A DNA stretch of 38,050 nt, taken from positions 1 through 38,050 of IMG/VR virus record IMGVR_UViG_3300043773_000195. The stretch is one strand, 5' to 3'. Below the pieces are notes generated by a model. That model saw only the letters and a program-made list of their open reading frames with translations. It made no database searches and was not told the DNA's origin. The translations under genes and the position numbers were made by a program. Shown in pieces: positions 26,224 through 34,850 of this stretch. Each line of letters begins with the position of its first letter. The first letter of the stretch is position 1. Source of the stretch: a virus.

Positions 26224-28068
26224 TTAAAATTCTACTAAGGTAGGATAGTTGGATTCGTTCATGGCGTTTTGCGCGCGTTCCGCTGCCAGAGCAGCCGGCG
26301 AACGCAAAACTTTTCCTGCGGCACGCGCCGTAGCGCCGCCGGCCTCACCGATCTTTGCTGCCCGCGTTTGGCCAGCTAGAGATTTTGCTAACATATTTGC
26401 CGCTACTTGCGGGTTTAACATTTCATTAGCAATTTCAATCGCCAATTTAGTGTCGATCTTACCTTGTAAACGTGACCAAATATCGTTTGCCAAGGTTGTG
26501 ATACGGTTTAACATTTGCGGCGGGCGCGCACTTCTTTGGGCAGCCGTCGCCATGTCCGTTACCTTAGGTCCTGCGGCGGCGCCTTTGCGTGCTTGGATAT
26601 TTGTTTTGGCAGCGCGGGCAAGATCATCACGTATATCCGTAACAATCTTTGCCTGCTCTGGCGTCAGCACATCAGTAAGTTCTTTGAACCGCGCTTCGTT
26701 TGTGGTGGCGCGCTTCAACGTCCCCGGCGCATCTTTAACTGCCGCCGCAAATACGTTGGCGCGTTCGCCGCCGGCTTCTAACGATGTTTTCAACTTATTT
26801 TCTAGATACTGACCAACTTCCATTTGGTTAATGGGTTTGGACATCTCCGCAAAAGTTGTTCGAGCAGCGCCGTATTCAGGAACTTTACCTTCCAACCAGC
26901 CAAGCAGACGCTTACGAACGTCCATGACTTGAGAACGTGCGCCGCGCACCAACGCAGTGTCGCCAGTTTTGGACAGCATATCATCCAAAGAGATTTTTAC
27001 GTTGTGAAGGAACAGCGTTGGGTTGCTCTCAAAGGTTGCGCCCTGCGATTTAGACAAACGCAAAGCCTCTGGTAACGCTTGCTTAATGTAAGGGTCATCC
27101 GCCAACTGCATAAGTTTCGGGTCGGCAAGAAATTTCTTTGCTTCAGCAGCAGCGTATAGTGGGTCTGTAGCCGCGGTGCGGGCCGTAATCGCCGCCGTGA
27201 TGTCTTCGGGTGTCTTAGCCACACCGCTCATGGCTTCAAGGCGCGCAGCTTCTTGTTCAGCGCCGCGGACGTAGTAAGGTGTTGGCGCTGCTTTTTCTGC
27301 TGACGCACCCAATGCTGAAAATTGAGTAAGGTTCAGCGGCGATGCAGCTTGCGCCGCAGTTGGTTTGCTGCCCGGCACAATCTCACTAGGCGCGCGAAGT
27401 TGGGCGATAAGTTCAGGCGCGCGACCTTCCGCGGCTTCCAAATATGCGGATTGTTTTGGCGAGATAATCTGTTGCACGGCTGCTGGCGCGCGCTCAAGCG
27501 CCTTTGGTATAACACGGGCAGGAGCGGCCAAAGCGTTTATTGGGTTGGTAAGTTCGGCTGCACGCGTCATGGCGTTAGATACGCGCGCGGTTGTTTTTCC
27601 GCCAAGACGAGCAACGCCAGCGCCGCCCGATAAAATGGTAGATAGATCGGCGGCAGCGCCGACAGGATCGGTGGCGATAGTACGCTTTAGTGCTTCAACC
27701 GATCCGTAACGCTGACGATATACGCCGCCCACTTGCTGTGCGGTTTGCACGGCACGCTTGGTTGAAGCCGGGTCGGTGTCAAAACGGTTAATAAAGTCAC
27801 GCACTTGCGCCGGCACAGCACGGTTAAGCGCGCCTGCCCCAAGGTCTAAAGCCGTACCAACAGTTTTAACCAGTGCTTCAGGTGTCTCTACGGCGCTTAC
27901 CATACTTTTTAGAAAATTAAGGCCGCTGCTAGGAATGTTTTGTACGGCTTCCGCCGCGGTATCCATCAAAGAGCGTTCGCTCTTAATCTTAGGCGCGGTT
28001 TTCCAAGAACTGCTTTTTGGCGTTTGTTGCCGCGTTGGCGTTACCTTAGGCGCGTCTTGCCAACTCAT
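26224..28068 (-). CDS. Ejection/internal virion protein, 614 aa (P22 gp16 position)
   Basis: This 614-aa, Ala-rich, mainly helical protein begins SWQDAPKVTPTRQQ, with Pro/Lys-rich repeats (WQDAPK, WKTAPK) in the first 30 residues. It then has long stretches such as DTAAEAVQNIPSSGLNF and DPVGAAADLSTILSGGAGV. It stands at the position and has about the length of P22 gp16 (609 aa), a pilot protein ejected with DNA. Sequence similarity to gp16 is not claimed; I assign it by synteny and composition. The stop of the preceding gene (28065) overlaps its start by 4 bp. Confidence 0.75.
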   Translation of the reverse strand: MSWQDAPKVTPTRQQTPKSSSWKTAPKIKSERSLMDTAAEAVQNIPSSGLNFLKSMVSAVETPEALVKTVGTALDLGAGALNRAVPAQVRDFINRFDTDPASTKRAVQTAQQVGGVYRQRYGSVEALKRTIATDPVGAAADLSTILSGGAGVARLGGKTTARVSNAMTRAAELTNPINALAAPARVIPKALERAPAAVQQIISPKQSAYLEAAEGRAPELIAQLRAPSEIVPGSKPTAAQAASPLNLTQFSALGASAEKAAPTPYYVRGAEQEAARLEAMSGVAKTPEDITAAITARTAATDPLYAAAEAKKFLADPKLMQLADDPYIKQALPEALRLSKSQGATFESNPTLFLHNVKISLDDMLSKTGDTALVRGARSQVMDVRKRLLGWLEGKVPEYGAARTTFAEMSKPINQMEVGQYLENKLKTSLEAGGERANVFAAAVKDAPGTLKRATTNEARFKELTDVLTPEQAKIVTDIRDDLARAAKTNIQARKGAAAGPKVTDMATAAQRSARPPQMLNRITTLANDIWSRLQGKIDTKLAIEIANEMLNPQVAANMLAKSLAGQTRAAKIGEAGGATARAAGKVLRSPAALAAERAQNAMNESNYPTLVEF

Positions 28069-29846
28069 TTTGGTTTTCTCCGCTTTTCGCCGTTAGGGTC
28101 TATAAACATGGCGCCGGGTTTCAGCTTGTTATAATCGGCATTGTTACGCACCCGCGGCATTTGCGACTCCGCCGTTGGCGTTTTAGCTGCTGCGCCTGTA
28201 GACGAAGGCAACTGAAAGCGTCCGGGATAGCGGGCAAACTCTTCGACATATTGATTTTCGTATGCGTCGCGGGTAACTTCCGCGGCCCTACGGGCTTGCG
28301 CTTCAATGATGTCTAGCTGGTTATCCAAGTCAGCGGGTTCCATACCTTCGATGTCAAGCGATGCAATCATGTCGCTAACGATGCGCCATTCTTGAACAGC
28401 CATCTGACCGATAGCGCCGGTAAGCGCGGCGGTGGACTTACCCATCTCCGTAACTTTACCACGCAAGTTTTTAATCGCCGTATCCGCTGAACGCGATCCG
28501 GGCGTTAACGACGGCAAGTATCCGCTCAAACCTGTAATGGCTTCTTTCTGTGAAGGGCTTAACTTGCGTACTTTATCAACCGTTGCCACAACGCCCGCCA
28601 CAGGGTCTAACATCATAGAGATTGTTGACCGTGCCGACTTGTAGTCTTTGGTGATATTTTCGCGCAACTTTGATTCTTGAACGGATGTCAAGGGTTTAGG
28701 GCCAGCTTCGTTAGCCGCTATTCGAGCAGCGCGAGCGCGCGCCAATTCTTTGTTGTATACTTCGCCTTCTGTTTCACGGGCAAGACGCGCTCTGCGCCCA
28801 GCCTGTTCAGGTGTCTCTGCTGGCGCCGTTGATACGTTAGGGTTACGGCCTTTAACTTGCTGACCAATTTGGTATTGCGCCAGTGTCTGTTCCATTGGCG
28901 GGGCGCCCCGAAGGCCAGCGGTCTGCGATTGCAGTGCTGGACCACGCAAGTCAGCAAACTGAGACTGCGGTGTGCGGCCATCATACGCCATTGGCGTAGT
29001 ACGCATTTCACCAGCTAAATCTGCTGGCGCGCCACGCATTTGGTTGTCCACCAACGCAGGCGTGTTGGGCGCAACATTTATGCCGTTCTGGCGAACCCAA
29101 TTCATAATCTTGGGGCGGCTTTCAGGCTGTACCTTTGATAGCATTTGGTCAAGATCGGCTTGCGCCATGATGCCAGTTTCCAAAGCAGACGCAATTACTA
29201 AGCCAAGCGAACCCGGTTCAGTCGCCGCCGTGTTTGGCGCGGGCGCGTTCGCCGACATGGGGTTAGTTGGCGTTGCGGCAGCCGGTGCGGCGGCTGGCGG
29301 CGCAGAGGGCTGTCCGGGGAGATTGGTTATAACCGCAGGTTCTACTCTTGGTCCGCCAAAGCCGCCTGACTGTATAAGGATTAAGTTTCCGTCGGCATCG
29401 ACTTCAACATTAGCTACACGCGCGGCAATGTTTTTAGCGATAAAATCGTCAGCGGTGGCGACTATCTGTTGCATCGCTTCCCGACTCCACACAGGTACAT
29501 TCTTCCTGTATGCGTTGGCTATGTTTGGGTTAGCTTGTTCGACCAAACCTAGCCATTCTTCGTAGCCTTGTTGCGACGATACATCCTTACCTATATTGCG
29601 TAAGTTTACAAATTCTTTGTCGCGGTAGGCTTGGTCTTTTTCCCGCATAGTGGATGTTTGTGTTTCCGCTGCGCGTGCTTCCTGCGCGGCTTTATACGTC
29701 ATTTCTTGCTGTGCTTGTTCTGCTTGACGCTGCGCCGCTTCCTGCTGGCGCGCCATGTTCATCATGTTCGCGTACTGCGCGCCAATACGCGCTGGATCGG
29801 GAAGCTGTGGGCTGCGCGCTTGAAGGGCTATCATTTGGTTTGGCAT
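28065..29846 (-). CDS. Ejection/internal virion protein, 593 aa (P22 gp20 position)
   Basis: This 593-aa protein has an N-terminal Gln/Ala/Glu-rich coiled coil (about 30-75), an Ala/Pro-rich linker (about 180-225, PAAAPAAATPTNP), a long helical middle, and a C-terminal beta segment (YNKLKPGAMFIDPNGEKRRK). That ending is common in phage ejection proteins. It lies between the gp7-like and gp16-position genes, as P22 gp20 does, and is likely packed in the capsid and delivered into the cell envelope. Assignment by synteny and composition. Confidence 0.75.
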   Translation of the reverse strand: MPNQMIALQARSPQLPDPARIGAQYANMMNMARQQEAAQRQAEQAQQEMTYKAAQEARAAETQTSTMREKDQAYRDKEFVNLRNIGKDVSSQQGYEEWLGLVEQANPNIANAYRKNVPVWSREAMQQIVATADDFIAKNIAARVANVEVDADGNLILIQSGGFGGPRVEPAVITNLPGQPSAPPAAAPAAATPTNPMSANAPAPNTAATEPGSLGLVIASALETGIMAQADLDQMLSKVQPESRPKIMNWVRQNGINVAPNTPALVDNQMRGAPADLAGEMRTTPMAYDGRTPQSQFADLRGPALQSQTAGLRGAPPMEQTLAQYQIGQQVKGRNPNVSTAPAETPEQAGRRARLARETEGEVYNKELARARAARIAANEAGPKPLTSVQESKLRENITKDYKSARSTISMMLDPVAGVVATVDKVRKLSPSQKEAITGLSGYLPSLTPGSRSADTAIKNLRGKVTEMGKSTAALTGAIGQMAVQEWRIVSDMIASLDIEGMEPADLDNQLDIIEAQARRAAEVTRDAYENQYVEEFARYPGRFQLPSSTGAAAKTPTAESQMPRVRNNADYNKLKPGAMFIDPNGEKRRKPK

Positions 29847-29850
29847 AGTA

Positions 29851-30582
29851 TTAACCTTTTGGAATGCCGCCGGGGGCGCCCTTGTTATAGTAGTTCATCA
29901 TAGCGTTGTTCATAGGCGCGTTTGACGCAAAAGAACCTATCTGGCCTAGTGCGGTATTAAGCGCATTGGCTGAACCGATGTAACCCGATGCGCGGGCTTG
30001 GCCTGCGTTGTACAGGTTCGACGCTTCGTTCTGACCCATCTGCCCTGCCGCGCCCGTAAGCACGTTCGTGGCAGACTGACCTGAACCCATTAGCGATTGC
30101 AACGGATTTAGTTTGGCGGTCCGCTCAACCTGATAGCGGTTAAATGCGTTCTGATATTCTTGGCTTGCCAAGTCCTGACCGAAACGCTGCACACCCTTCA
30201 ATGTAGAGCCTGACAGCAGATTGCCACGTGCGGCTGCTGACCGCTCTAGCGCCTTCATTCCTTCTGCTTGACGGAAACCATAGCCGGGGTCTTGCTGGAA
30301 TTGCTCAGTGCCAAAAGATTTACCGAGGCTGCCATAGCCCGCAGCGGCTTTGTCACCGCCGATGCCCAGAAGCTGCATAATCTCATTTTGCGCGGTAAGC
30401 CCACCTTGGCGGAATGGCTCTTGCAGTTCTGTCTGCCGCTGAAACATACGCTCCTGTGCAGCGTTAGCATCCTGCGACGCTTGGACTTGCGCCCTAGATG
30501 CTTTCTTAGCCGCACTACTTGAAATTGCGGCGCCGCCGATTGCGGCTGTAGCTGTTATAGCTGCTGCTGCTGCCAAACCCAT
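29851..30582 (-). CDS. DNA transfer/ejection protein, P22 gp7-like
   Basis: This is a 243-aa protein. The N-terminus (GLAAAAAITATAAIGGAAIS) is hydrophobic; a Gln-rich helix follows (about 25-65, with QERMFQRQTELQEPFRQGG). A middle section has YGSLGKSFGTEQFQQDPGYG, FRQAEGMKALERSAAARGNL and LLSGSTLKGVQRFGQDLASQ, well-known pieces of the gp7-like DNA transfer proteins found in many podoviruses. It would be ejected with DNA and help it cross the envelope. It lies directly behind the sulfotransferase-like/GNAT-like gene. Confidence 0.85.
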   Translation of the reverse strand: MGLAAAAAITATAAIGGAAISSSAAKKASRAQVQASQDANAAQERMFQRQTELQEPFRQGGLTAQNEIMQLLGIGGDKAAAGYGSLGKSFGTEQFQQDPGYGFRQAEGMKALERSAAARGNLLSGSTLKGVQRFGQDLASQEYQNAFNRYQVERTAKLNPLQSLMGSGQSATNVLTGAAGQMGQNEASNLYNAGQARASGYIGSANALNTALGQIGSFASNAPMNNAMMNYYNKGAPGGIPKG

Positions 30583-30583
30583 T

Positions 30584-31651
30584 TTACGCTTCCTTCAGTT
30601 GCAGACGGTATGAACTACCGTGGTCTTGCGCGCCTAGACGCTTATATAGCATAGAAATACGGGGACCAGAACCCCTTTTACCCGCATCAAAAAACACTTC
30701 GTCAACACCTTTATTTTTTAACTCTTTAATTGCTTCGCGTTGCAGCTTCAAGCCTAAACCGGGGAATTCTGGCGACGCAAAGAATGTTGTGTTTGTGGCA
30801 GATAAAATGTCCGGCGAAGTCAACGACGGCGATATTAGCGTCATCAGATAACCAAACATTCTGCCGTTGCACCGTGCGGTCATTATCTGCATGGCGCCAA
30901 CGCCGTCCAGCGCGCGCATCAGCGGCAAGTTTTTATTCTGCCAGTTGCCCGGTGTCTCGCCCACTTGGACAAGATGCTCGTCAAACAGTTTATCGGCGTC
31001 TTGCATCCAGCTATCAAAGCCTTCTGTCTGGAAGGTGATGCCTTCGGGCGGCTCATCTACTTTCGGCGCCAGCGCCGCTATCGTCTGGTGCTTGGCAATC
31101 GACGCCAGCTTTTCCATCGCAGGAGCGTATGCTGCATAGTGACGCATCATGGCGGGCATACTGATCTGGATGTTGACAGGGGCCAACTGCGCCCAGTGCG
31201 CCGGATCATGCGGCTGTTGCAGGCAATGCTCGAATACAGCAGCGCAAGTGTCTTCTTCGTTCAGGCTGTCAAACGACGCTGACAAGACGTTGGGCAGTCG
31301 CGCCTCAATCTGGTCTAAGCTGCGGTCCAGCTTCAGCAGTATCGCGTCGAGTGCTGCGCGGTCAAACTGCGTACCGGGTATGCTCATCAGACTTTCGGCA
31401 ACTTCGTCGCGGGGCCGGCGTACAACTAGAACGCGGGCGTCAGGCGCAAACCGCTCTAGCAGCCGCCACCAAGGCGCGCCGGCTGTCTCCGCAGTGCCAA
31501 TGTTGGGCTGCGAAAACCATGCCTGCACATCGTCAAGGCTACGCATATGCCGTAACTCTTCGTGGCCGCACATCCATTCACCATAAGTCAGAAAGCGGGA
31601 CAGCCAAGCTGACCGCGATCTTGGTAATGAAAATACGACAAAGGGGGGCAT
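30584..31651 (-). CDS. Sulfotransferase-like and GNAT-like two-domain protein
   Basis: This is a 355-aa protein with two recognisable halves. Residues 1 to about 190 look like a sulfotransferase: FSLPRSRSAWLSRFL (8-21) matches the PAPS 5'-phosphosulfate loop, and VLVVRRPRDEVAESL (74-88) the 3'-phosphate segment (VxRxPRD). Residues about 210-355 look like a GNAT acetyltransferase: QIMTARCNGRMFGYLM (255-270), the acetyl-CoA loop EFPGLGLKLQREA (296-308), and a C-terminal MLYKRLGA. It lies in the gp14 position of a P22-type order. Single-domain GNATs are known at such virion positions; the fusion is unusual. Either half could have lost activity. Its ATG overlaps the preceding stop. Confidence 0.75.
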   Translation of the reverse strand: MPPFVVFSLPRSRSAWLSRFLTYGEWMCGHEELRHMRSLDDVQAWFSQPNIGTAETAGAPWWRLLERFAPDARVLVVRRPRDEVAESLMSIPGTQFDRAALDAILLKLDRSLDQIEARLPNVLSASFDSLNEEDTCAAVFEHCLQQPHDPAHWAQLAPVNIQISMPAMMRHYAAYAPAMEKLASIAKHQTIAALAPKVDEPPEGITFQTEGFDSWMQDADKLFDEHLVQVGETPGNWQNKNLPLMRALDGVGAMQIMTARCNGRMFGYLMTLISPSLTSPDILSATNTTFFASPEFPGLGLKLQREAIKELKNKGVDEVFFDAGKRGSGPRISMLYKRLGAQDHGSSYRLQLKEA

Positions 31652-31986
31652 TAGCTGACTAGCCGACCTGACGCACGAATGTTAATTGCCGACGCCGTGC
31701 CAGCGATTGTGCTGATAAAGCCATTGTTAGGTAGCACATGACCGACCAATTCAGGAAACGTATATGTCTCGCTGGCCTGAAGCGTCTTGGTCTTGACGAT
31801 CAAGTTGTCGTTACTGGCGGAGCCAGCAGCCGTAATCAGGTTGACGCTGATCGTTGCGGCGGTCGCGCTGTAGTTAGTCGCGGTAAACTTGTCGATGATC
31901 GTCTGCACGCCAGTTGACGTGTACTGTGTTGTCTGGGATGCTTCCGCTGTCTTAGCGGGGATGATGTTACTGATAGATACGGCCAT
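31651..31986 (-). CDS. Small virion-associated protein, 111 aa
   Basis: This is a 111-aa, Thr/Ser/Ala-rich beta protein (YTSTGVQTIIDKFTATNYSA and LVGHVLPNNGFISTIAGTAS). It lacks Trp and Cys. Proteins with this look are widespread in marine and freshwater phages near the ejection genes, without a known function, and may be minor structural components. Its ribosome binding site (AAGGA) is good. Confidence 0.7.
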   Translation of the reverse strand: MAVSISNIIPAKTAEASQTTQYTSTGVQTIIDKFTATNYSATAATISVNLITAAGSASNDNLIVKTKTLQASETYTFPELVGHVLPNNGFISTIAGTASAINIRASGRLVS

Positions 31987-31996
31987 ATCTGGTTCC

Positions 31997-32710
31997 TTAA
32001 TATAGCAAAGTGTTAAACGAAGCGGCTTGCATTATAACCCAATTTGTGCCGTTTGACACTAGGGTAGCCCAGTTACCAGACACATCAGTTAAAATTGCTG
32101 TTCCGGCTGCGCCGCCGCCTTGCGGCACAACGTCGCTGGATGCAGACACAAGGGTCTGGGCTTGGTTGTTCTGGAACGTAAGATACCGACCAGAGTACGT
32201 TGCAGCGGACGGCAGCGTGACGGTGCAAGTTGATCCAGACTTGTTGTTGATGATCCATGTCTCGGTGGGGGCGACCGTAAAGTCGGCGGTCTTAGTGACA
32301 GGCGCGGTTGAGGATGGGCTTAACGCTCGTATAGCTAACTCGTCTAGTGGCGGTGGCGACAAGGCTAATGCTTGGACTTCGCTTTGCACAGCCGCTAAGG
32401 CAGACACTGTTGCGCCAAGCGGTGTACTTGCTAACCCTTGAATATCGCTTGCCAAGACGGCTTCACCAGACACGCAGCAGTCAGGGGCGCTTTCGGTAGC
32501 CTGTGCTAGTTCTGCCAACATGGCGTCATATGTAGCCAGCAGCGATATGGCGTCAGGCCCCAGCGTGACTTCTTCTTGGTTGGTCTGCGTAGCTGTCAGC
32601 AGCGACAGAAAGAACCGATACCATTCACGGCTAATCGCCCCCGACCGTTCGTCAATAAAGGCGACGCGTGGCGGCGTTAACTGGGTAGGGTTGATCGGCG
32701 CTAACGCCAT
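31997..32710 (-). CDS. Tail needle candidate, 237 aa (P22 gp26 position)
   Basis: This is a 237-aa protein; P22 gp26 has 233 aa and the same place behind gp10. The N-terminus carries PPRVAFIDERSGAISREWYR followed by FFLSLL, a recurrent N-terminal anchor of phage structural proteins. The middle is helical with possible coiled-coil stretches. The C-terminal half (about 140-237) is a beta-rich knob-like domain (TETWIINNKSGSTCTVTLPS and TLVSASSDVVPQGGGAAGTA). A needle with an altered tip would fit. Direct similarity to gp26 is not visible, so this stays a candidate. The start overlaps the gp10-like stop by 1 nt. Confidence 0.6.
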   Translation of the reverse strand: MALAPINPTQLTPPRVAFIDERSGAISREWYRFFLSLLTATQTNQEEVTLGPDAISLLATYDAMLAELAQATESAPDCCVSGEAVLASDIQGLASTPLGATVSALAAVQSEVQALALSPPPLDELAIRALSPSSTAPVTKTADFTVAPTETWIINNKSGSTCTVTLPSAATYSGRYLTFQNNQAQTLVSASSDVVPQGGGAAGTAILTDVSGNWATLVSNGTNWVIMQAASFNTLLY

Positions 32711-34140
32711 CAGGCGCTCGTCCCGCTAATGGCTAGTTCAGCGCCCATAATGTAAATCCGTACAGGGTCTGTTCCAGACACTTCGTAGACGCGGTCGCGT
32801 ATCTTCATCGTCGCGCCAAGGCGGCGCCAGATGGTACGCTTTCCGTATTTGCCGATAGCACCCATCGACTTCCAATGTTCGTTAGAAAATGTATGGCCGC
32901 CATCATCTGACCAGCGCAGCATCACTTGCGGATCGCTGCCTTGGCCGCTGTTCAGGCCCACGCCTGTCTCGCAATCAAGTTGCAGCGCGTGCTGGATCGT
33001 GCGTGTGAGGTTGTTAGCGCCTGTCGGCAGCGCACGCCATGACCGTAGCCATTTCTGCGCCGCACCATCGTCAGCGTACACTTCTAGATCAAACGCATAA
33101 ATCTTGCCGGTCTGGTAGTCGCCAACAACTGTGGTGTCGTTAAAGAACATCTGGTTGTTAGCGCGGTGACGGTTAAACTCGCCGTTATTAAGCGAAGCGC
33201 GCTCATGCCATGCGCCGGTAGCGACATCGTACACCCATGTGGTGTCTGCGCTAGGGAAGTTCAGGACGTAGAAGCTGTGGCCGTCCTGCTGGTACGTGTA
33301 TCCAACAGCGTCTGTCAGGTCAGCATACTCTTGCATCTGCCATTCGATAGCGTGCGTAGACACGCGCTGACCGATGTAGCCAGCGGCCTTGTAGACGATG
33401 CCTTGGCCGCGTGCGTCCTTGCCTAGCCAGTAGACTTGGTTGTCCATCTTGGCGATGCTGTACGGGGCAGCGCAGCCTAGTTCGTTGAACGCGCCTTGGA
33501 TACGGGTCAGCGGAAAGTCAAGAAGTCCTGCGTCATACCAGACTTCGGTTGAGTTTGTGCCAAACACCCAGACTTCGCGGTGGTCTACAAAGACCGCAAC
33601 GACATTGTCTGGATTGCCTTCGGCGCTGGCAAACTCCAGCGGGTCAACACTGGTTCCGTCGAGCAGCGACGTAACCCAGATTTTCTGGCTGTCAGGTTCG
33701 TTGAACGTAAAATAGCCGTCGATGTAACCGACAGTGCCGGCGCCGGGGAAGTCAGGGTCGGTGATCTGCTGGAACACGTCAGTGCTGGCGTTGTAGATGT
33801 AACCTTGCGGGTTAGCCGCAATGAATAGCTGCGTGCCGTTGTCAGCCATGCTGACAGGGCCAGTGCCGCCAACAGTGCCTTTAGCGGTTGCGTTCCAGCT
33901 ACTGTCAAGCTGAAACAGCGTTGGGCCTGACACGACATAGCCGTAGATGCCATACGTCCACAGCCCGCGGATAGGGCCAATGCCAATGGTAGCAAGAGCA
34001 GTCAGCCCCGGCGCGCGCTGAAGGAACGCTGGTTCCTTGCCGCCTTCAGGGACAATCTCAGGAAACAAGTTAACCATGCGGTTGTCGGCGGCGTTGACGC
34101 TTCTAGCGACATACGCCGACCCAAGGATCGGCGTCTTCAT
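32710..34140 (-). CDS. Packaged-DNA stabilisation / tail hub protein, P22 gp10-like
   Basis: This 476-aa protein (P22 gp10: 472 aa) begins MKTPILGSAYVARSVNAADNR and MVNLFPEIVPEGGKEPAF, the typical gp10 start. It continues with regularly spaced beta-propeller-like segments (GLWTYGIYGYVVSGPTLFQL, FIAANPQGYIYN, VWVFGTNSTEVWY, HSFYVLNFP). In P22 the protein forms the lower tail ring that closes the capsid after packaging and carries the tailspikes. The start overlaps the gp4-like stop by 1 nt. Confidence 0.9.
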   Translation of the reverse strand: MKTPILGSAYVARSVNAADNRMVNLFPEIVPEGGKEPAFLQRAPGLTALATIGIGPIRGLWTYGIYGYVVSGPTLFQLDSSWNATAKGTVGGTGPVSMADNGTQLFIAANPQGYIYNASTDVFQQITDPDFPGAGTVGYIDGYFTFNEPDSQKIWVTSLLDGTSVDPLEFASAEGNPDNVVAVFVDHREVWVFGTNSTEVWYDAGLLDFPLTRIQGAFNELGCAAPYSIAKMDNQVYWLGKDARGQGIVYKAAGYIGQRVSTHAIEWQMQEYADLTDAVGYTYQQDGHSFYVLNFPSADTTWVYDVATGAWHERASLNNGEFNRHRANNQMFFNDTTVVGDYQTGKIYAFDLEVYADDGAAQKWLRSWRALPTGANNLTRTIQHALQLDCETGVGLNSGQGSDPQVMLRWSDDGGHTFSNEHWKSMGAIGKYGKRTIWRRLGATMKIRDRVYEVSGTDPVRIYIMGAELAISGTSA

Positions 34141-34850
34141 TAATAGTTCCCAGCGTAGATGTTAAACCGCTGACGTGAAGCAATGAGGCTGTACGGTATC
34201 GACATGATGTCATCAGGGTTGTTGATGCGCTTGATGTTACGCTTCGAGGACATAGCAATGCGGCGAACCTGTGCCGATGGCTCTTCACCAAACTCAGGCG
34301 CCATTTCGCACGCCAAGTTATAGCGGAACGCACGCAGATAGCCGGGCGGGAAATGCAGTGTAGTCGCCAGCGTTGCAGGCTGGCTGAGTTCCTCAACCGA
34401 AATAAAATGCCATTCCAGATCGCGCGTAGGCCGCGGATAGATGTACATCTCAATGTCAGGAAACGTCATGTTGACAAAGATGACTTGCGGGTATGTCGAT
34501 GTGACGGTCTTGACCGCGATGCCGTTATACTGCTGCTGGTTGATGAATTTGATGCCGTAGCTGACGCCAGTGCCGGGGTCGCGGAAATAGGTGCTGTCAT
34601 CCAGCAGCACTGGACGGTTGCCAACAAAGTCGCCGCTTGGCCCCATTGTGCGTGAAAGCAAACCTGACGGCCATGTGAACACTTGGTCTTGCGTTGAGAA
34701 GACGGACAGGCGCTCTGTGTTCCAGCTATCAATCATCTGGTTCATGGCGCGCAGTGCGTCCTGCGACGTTTCAGCTGATGGAACTTCGCCTTCTGCCAGA
34801 ACACCTAGCAGTCTAAGCGAACCGTTAATTATGTCGCCGGCAGTTTCCAT
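34140..34850 (-). CDS. Head-tail adaptor, P22 gp4-like
   Basis: This is a 236-aa protein; P22 gp4 is 166 aa, so this one is longer. The start reads TAGDIINGSLRLLGVLAEGE, then PSAETSQDALRAMNQMIDSW, which is the gp4-type helical domain that attaches to the portal ring. The rest contains TYPQVIFVNMTFPDIEMYIY and a basic helix. P22 gp4 also has peptidoglycan-hydrolase activity; I cannot recognise such a site here. It is preceded by the 58-aa gene (3-bp gap). Confidence 0.85.
   Translation of the reverse strand: METAGDIINGSLRLLGVLAEGEVPSAETSQDALRAMNQMIDSWNTERLSVFSTQDQVFTWPSGLLSRTMGPSGDFVGNRPVLLDDSTYFRDPGTGVSYGIKFINQQQYNGIAVKTVTSTYPQVIFVNMTFPDIEMYIYPRPTRDLEWHFISVEELSQPATLATTLHFPPGYLRAFRYNLACEMAPEFGEEPSAQVRRIAMSSKRNIKRINNPDDIMSIPYSLIASRQRFNIYAGNY

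Follow-up and report, generated by a model that had tools for sequence, protein, structure and literature searches.

A predicted sulfotransferase-GNAT fusion encoded directly before an ejection protein with a Met-Gly start in uncultured phages

What is the role of the phage gene that immediately precedes the first ejection gene? The function of the genes that hold this slot, T7 gp13 and P22 gp14, is poorly understood, with T7 gp13 labeled in Pfam as a probable scaffold protein and P22 gp14 assigned to head morphogenesis. In the viral DNA analyzed here (the 38,050 nucleotides of IMG/VR record IMGVR_UViG_3300043773_000195, hereafter the window), the original prediction, made from the letters of the DNA, placed in this slot a sulfotransferase-like domain fused to a GNAT-like domain. 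Its coordinates, 30584–31651, held, and we add that the gene lies on the minus strand. The features of the module are as follows.

34140–34850, minus strand: gp4-like head-tail adaptor (phrog_637, 2e-10; weak match to Pfam P22_Tail-4)
32710–34140, minus strand: gp10-like head closure Hc3 (phrog_578, E 1.6e-132)
31997–32710, minus strand: 237-aa gene at the tail-needle position (by position only, no confident family)
31651–31986, minus strand: 111-aa gene directly upstream of the fusion (same place in locus L268, 58% identity)
30584–31651, minus strand: sulfotransferase-GNAT fusion gene (355 aa, ATG start)
31142–31651, minus strand: predicted sulfotransferase-fold domain, residues 1–170 (AF2, Foldseek, VIA, Pfam)
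31601–31630, minus strand: putative 5'-phosphosulfate loop SLPRSRSAWL, residues 8–17 (P10–R13 and W16 invariant in 43/43)
31388–31426, minus strand: putative 3'-phosphate-type motif VVRRPRDEVAESL, residues 76–88 (R79 and S87 invariant)
30587–31027, minus strand: predicted GNAT-fold domain, residues 209–355 (AF2 pLDDT 89.4; Foldseek, VIA)
30740–30766, minus strand: putative acetyl-CoA loop FPGLGLKLQ, residues 296–304 (conserved Gly; beta4-alpha3 turn of the model)
29851–30582, minus strand: gp7-like DNA ejection gene (phrog_598, 5.3e-38; starts ATG-GGT, Met-Gly)
28065–29846, minus strand: gene at the gp20 place (by position only, no family match)
26224–28068, minus strand: gene at the gp16 place (by position only, no family match)

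The fusion is carried by many uncultured phages, which answers the proposal to look for it elsewhere: a first IMG/VR scan gave 72 loci, a scan with a divergent alignment gave 388 stretches encoding relatives, and 84 full-length fused proteins, all distinct, were examined. Comparison of these sequences indicates that 30584–31651 is a real gene, since all 84 homologues, reaching down to about 48% identity, keep a single open frame with little or no variation at the motif residues. The motifs named in the original prediction lie in this frame as SLPRSRSAWL (residues 8–17), VVRRPRDEV (residues 76–84) and FPGLGLKLQ (residues 296–304), and their preservation across homologues at 48–100% identity rules out a chance motif. 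An artefactual join of two genes is likewise ruled out, as both halves are present in every complete locus ORF, the ORFs without both being contig-end fragments and solo genes that were fetched deliberately. Judged on this comparison, the sulfotransferase-GNAT fusion is genuine. The whole fusion also occurs in two bacterial assemblies, Azospirillum rugosum and a Nevskia MAG, with a fragment in a Rhizobiales MAG. No fused gene was found in 50,697 phage records, in which the halves match apart only, and a scan with the Vibrio solo GNAT alone as query gave no matches.

The proposed sulfotransferase-like character of the N-terminal half is borne out by the AF2 model, fold searches, Pfam matches among relatives and invariant motifs; as modeled, this half is a PAPS-sulfotransferase fold, for which PAPS binding and sulfate transfer are predicted. 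In the full-length AF2 model, residues 1–160 are fair to good (block means 52–91) and the remainder is poor. Foldseek against the PDB with residues 1–168 of this moderate-confidence model placed tyrosylprotein sulfotransferases at the top (E 5e-4, probability 1.00), and VIA gave the Olefin Synthase sulfotransferase domain at Z 10.9 and tyrosylprotein sulfotransferases at Z 10.2–10.6, each over about 160 residues. P-loop kinases start at Z 9.5 in the same search and so stay compatible with the fold alone (9.5 against 10.9), which means that the motifs carry the sulfotransferase assignment. Across the 43 representatives of the fused proteins over which motif conservation was scored, P10-R11-S12-R13, W16, H30, R79 and S87 are invariant, and the loop pattern PRSR[ST]xW is invariant or nearly so. 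The R79-x7-S87 spacing is that of the 3'-phosphate motif in PAPS enzymes. Pfam Sulfotransfer_3 (PF13469) matches 13 of 15 relatives (best E 2.8e-7), with the window protein itself, at 19.7 bits against the Pfam sulfotransferase model, missing the curated cut-off of 27. A PDB sequence search returned chance matches only, the top one a de novo designed repeat, and an NCBIfam search gave no relevant match.

The PAPS sulfotransferases in question (Sulfotransfer_3, tyrosylprotein sulfotransferases, and the Olefin Synthase and curacin-pathway domains) have a fold of about 160 residues in common, and share the PRSR loop and the R-x7-S motif with the window domain, which is, however, shorter, GNAT-fused and phage-encoded. 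Closer to hand are the solo phage sulfotransferase-like proteins of phrog_10855 and phrog_38824 (Pseudomonas phage Ab18 ORF36; Stenotrophomonas phage Suzuki), which retain the motif residues, including the R79/S87 pair, at about 28% identity to the N-terminal half of the fusion. Unlike the fusion, these proteins lack a GNAT domain, and their genes lie apart from the virion module, with MazG-, ligase- or kinase-type genes nearby.

The C-terminal half, being poor in the full-length model, was remodeled separately on 46 sequences (residues 195–355 alone), giving a pLDDT of 89.4 and a pTM of 0.84. With this model Foldseek returned 635 PDB chains at E ≤1e-3, the matches listed being GNAT-kind acetyltransferases, and VIA gave Z scores reaching 15.9, where many rows tie, those of the N-terminal acetyltransferases RimI and NatC included; given these ties, the fold identifies a GNAT but not its substrate. 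The expected GNAT-like domain is thus upheld by the separate model and by both fold searches, and this half is, as modeled, a GNAT fold. A direct scan of the window also matches phrog_1249 here, a match missed by a fast genome search, whose first-look stage passed no candidate. In the putative CoA loop, G298 is kept in 40 of the 43 representatives and G300 in all 43, whereas, relative to the motif A consensus R/Q-x-x-G-x-G/A, the first position is mostly Pro and the last mostly Lys. With both glycines kept and the loop ends off consensus, catalysis by the GNAT half is likely but not assured. Neither half has a fold unrelated to those proposed, and no homology of the whole protein to a non-enzyme structural protein was seen, two outcomes that the original prediction had named as contrary to it.

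The genomic position of the fusion is equally distinctive. Its ATG shares one nucleotide with the stop of the 111-aa gene (a TAATG junction), and one nucleotide separates its own stop from the ATG of the gp7-like gene. Against the P22 order of gp4, gp10, gp26, gp14, gp7, gp20 and gp16, the original prediction set the gene at the gp14 place, next to the needle-position gene; the slot stands, but the direct contact does not, as the 111-aa gene intervenes. The 237-aa needle-position protein has N-terminal relatives in two further loci (L266, L267). In a redundant set of 256 fused ORFs, a gp7-like gene detected by HMM lies directly 3' of the fusion in 199, and in many of the rest the contig is cut or the next protein is a more distantly related one of ejection type; the spacing to the next gene is 1 nt in most of 80 distinct cases. 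An ejection-type gene directly follows the fusion in both P22-type and T7-type modules. In locus L272, the gene next to the fusion on its 3' side encodes a phrog_418 internal virion protein; in the Azospirillum prophage, a phrog_376 tail protein gene precedes the fusion; and in L272 (5557–5991) and L288 (4597–5130), a separate gp13-like gene (phrog_308) precedes it. With these neighbors the linkage persists from one tail type to another, and the fusion is not simply gp13. T7 gp13 and P22 gp14, while holding the same slot directly before the first ejection gene, are single-domain proteins of other sequence families (phrog_308 and phrog_651), and the fusion matches phrog_10855, phrog_38824 and phrog_1249 but neither of these.

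The remark that GNATs near ejection genes are known also proved sound, as solo GNATs hold the slot in Zobellviridae and in Pseudomonas phage PfAn1. These solo virion-module proteins (phrog_1249; Zobellviridae Vibrio phages, PfAn1, a cobavirus) are homologous to the C-terminal half and, like the fusion, are encoded before the first ejection gene, but they lack the sulfotransferase, and the protein that follows them lacks the Met-Gly start. In cobaviruses, the GNAT at this place has been likened to T7 gp13 (PMC6775973). In PfAn1, the partner of the GNAT is a separate gene for an Asp/Asn beta-hydroxylase homologue, which lies directly before the solo GNAT there and in L266, L267, L268 and L270/L271 (PF05118 at E 1e-15 and 2e-17 for the two homologues scanned). 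Limnohabitans phage DC33 (L295) likewise has a hydroxylase/GNAT pair, in L296 a hydroxylase gene lies directly before the DNA-ejection gene, and in L062 a hydroxylase gene (PF05118, 7.7e-7) lies directly before the fusion, giving a row of three modifying folds ahead of the ejection gene. The Asp/Asn beta-hydroxylase genes (PF05118), each next to a solo GNAT of the virion slot and directly before it except in L062, are located as follows.

L268: 4426–5004
L262: 4377–4973
L266: 2081–2677
L267: 4400–4996
L270: 4441–5004
L295: 5986–6612
L062: 5408–5995 (before the fusion)

We note separately that the taxonomy line of DC33 gives Inoviridae, yet this is a 39 kb genome with a short-tailed-phage hydroxylase/GNAT pair, and it looks misclassified.

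The protein encoded directly after the fusion begins with Met-Gly in 80 of 80 distinct cases; in the window the start is ATG-GGT at 30577–30582. These proteins have 56 distinct N-termini with variable positions 3–12, and fall into eight groups unjoined by BLAST, which are possibly distant relatives and of which one is a mis-called ORF of L067 alone. All four Gly codons are used at position 2, making a purely codon-level cause unlikely. As controls, Met-Gly starts occur in 3 of 76 proteins of the same gp7 family, taken from contigs that lack the fusion, and in 6 of 284 long ORFs elsewhere in the loci; the value from Fisher's test, about 1e-41, is not valid as a probability because the sequences are related. 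Position 2 is Val after the solo GNAT in most of the hydroxylase/GNAT clade, Ala in Zobellviridae and Gly in DC33, while in the protein after the slot gene it is Cys in T7 and Leu in P22. A tblastn search with two divergent downstream proteins matched no phage record. The strict invariance at position 2 alone, across diverse proteins, leads us to favor a reading of Gly2 as a putative substrate mark for an N-terminal acyltransferase over co-inheritance, although, the sequences being related, the 5' end of the ejection gene may have been inherited together with its upstream neighbor. Both this Met-Gly association and the pairing of the hydroxylase with the solo GNAT (with the fusion in L062) are new here.

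Taking these observations together, we tentatively put forward, at somewhat less than even confidence, that the fusion is an assembly-time enzyme modifying the neighboring ejection protein, probably at its N-terminal glycine; the folds, the conserved motifs, the fusion, its slot, its linkage to the next gene and the Met-Gly association are shown, and we infer that it is catalytic, what its substrate is, when it acts and which half recognizes the glycine. The fusion would be a late-expressed, two-headed modifying enzyme, translated beside the ejection-protein gene and active while particles are assembled in the producing cell. Acylation of the gp7/gp14-like ejection protein would fall to the GNAT half, probably at the N-terminal Gly exposed by Met removal, and the sulfotransferase half would draw on host PAPS to sulfate that protein or a different virion protein, modifications that would tune storage of the ejection protein or its insertion into the envelope of the next host. 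Consistent with such an enzyme are both folds, the invariant motifs, the retention of both halves, the linkage to the slot, the universal Gly2, and the presence of another protein-modifying fold, the hydroxylase, beside the solo GNAT and the fusion in L062; against it stand the Pro and Lys in the CoA loop, where R/Q and G/A are usual, and the possibility that Gly2 was inherited with the upstream gene. Because solo GNAT clades are followed by proteins whose second residue is Val, Ala, Cys or Leu, the glycine rule would be special to the fusion clade. A more specific version, which we consider rather unlikely as a whole, is that of a dedicated enzyme placing an acetyl or longer acyl group on the ejection-protein glycine in the manner of an N-myristoyltransferase, and sulfating the same apparatus, a chemical priming of the injection channel within the producing cell. 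N-myristoyltransferase itself has a GNAT fold.

The alternative that best survives, although we judge it unlikely, is a non-enzymatic assembly chaperone, in which enzyme-derived folds, with no catalysis, help in loading or protecting the ejection protein, as supposed for T7 gp13 and P22 gp14. The slot shared with a probable scaffold and a head morphogenesis protein fits this, as does the off-consensus CoA loop. However, a mere scaffold would have no need for the invariance that the sulfotransferase half keeps at its cofactor site across deeply diverged sequences, and L272 and L288 have their gp13-like gene as well. Modification of a virion protein during assembly is also favored over an injected effector, the second option of the original prediction, in which the packaged protein would be ejected and modify a host envelope or cytoplasmic target. 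That the gene adjoins ejection genes in the virion module, and that modifying domains including GNATs have been described in proteins thought to be packaged (PMC5512222), speaks for such an effector. Nevertheless, the virion proteins listed as detected in the T7-like phage phiPsa17, which is of another family than the window phage, include gp14, gp15 and gp16 but not gp13 (PMC4517105), and this absence, together with a linkage to the ejection gene that spans tail types and a Met-Gly mark that points to its product, makes the effector improbable.

An accessory late-operon gene modifying a small molecule, surface glycan or other component of the host in the producing cell is a still more doubtful reading: both superfamilies include small-molecule and glycan enzymes and the closest folds are mixed in substrate, but accessory genes usually change position, and the fusion keeps to a single conserved slot, at 1-nt spacing in most cases. 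Finally, that the N-terminal half is instead a P-loop kinase-like or other nucleotide-binding domain, as its nearness to such kinases in the fold list and the hydrolase label of phrog_10855 might suggest, is highly improbable given the absence of a Walker A sequence, the fit of R79-x7-S87 to the PAPS 3'-phosphate motif and the recurrence of sulfotransferase models among the Pfam matches of the members.

In the literature searched, sulfated or acylated phage ejection proteins are not described, phage tail proteins myristoylated at an N-terminal glycine did not turn up, and no report of a sulfotransferase fusion at the virion-module slot or, by exact phrases, of a phage sulfotransferase was found. 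For this poorly understood slot, a two-enzyme fusion clade with a strict Met-Gly mark offers a concrete substrate and site that mass spectrometry can address. If the dedicated acylating and sulfating enzyme is real, then, taken with the hydroxylase/GNAT pairs in the same slot, short-tailed phages would generally modify their ejection proteins after translation, a theme so far overlooked.

Where gp7 relatives occur without the fusion, a PHA00672-type, cupin-looking gene is the usual occupant of the slot (L297, 2420–2893; L299, 2426–2920; L300, 2327–2887; L261, 7381–7839). In Xanthomonas phage PBR31 (L301), the gene at 1735–2106 is annotated as an acetyltransferase but by eye resembles the 111-aa gene of the window, and the likelier GNAT-like gene is that at 2445–2816.
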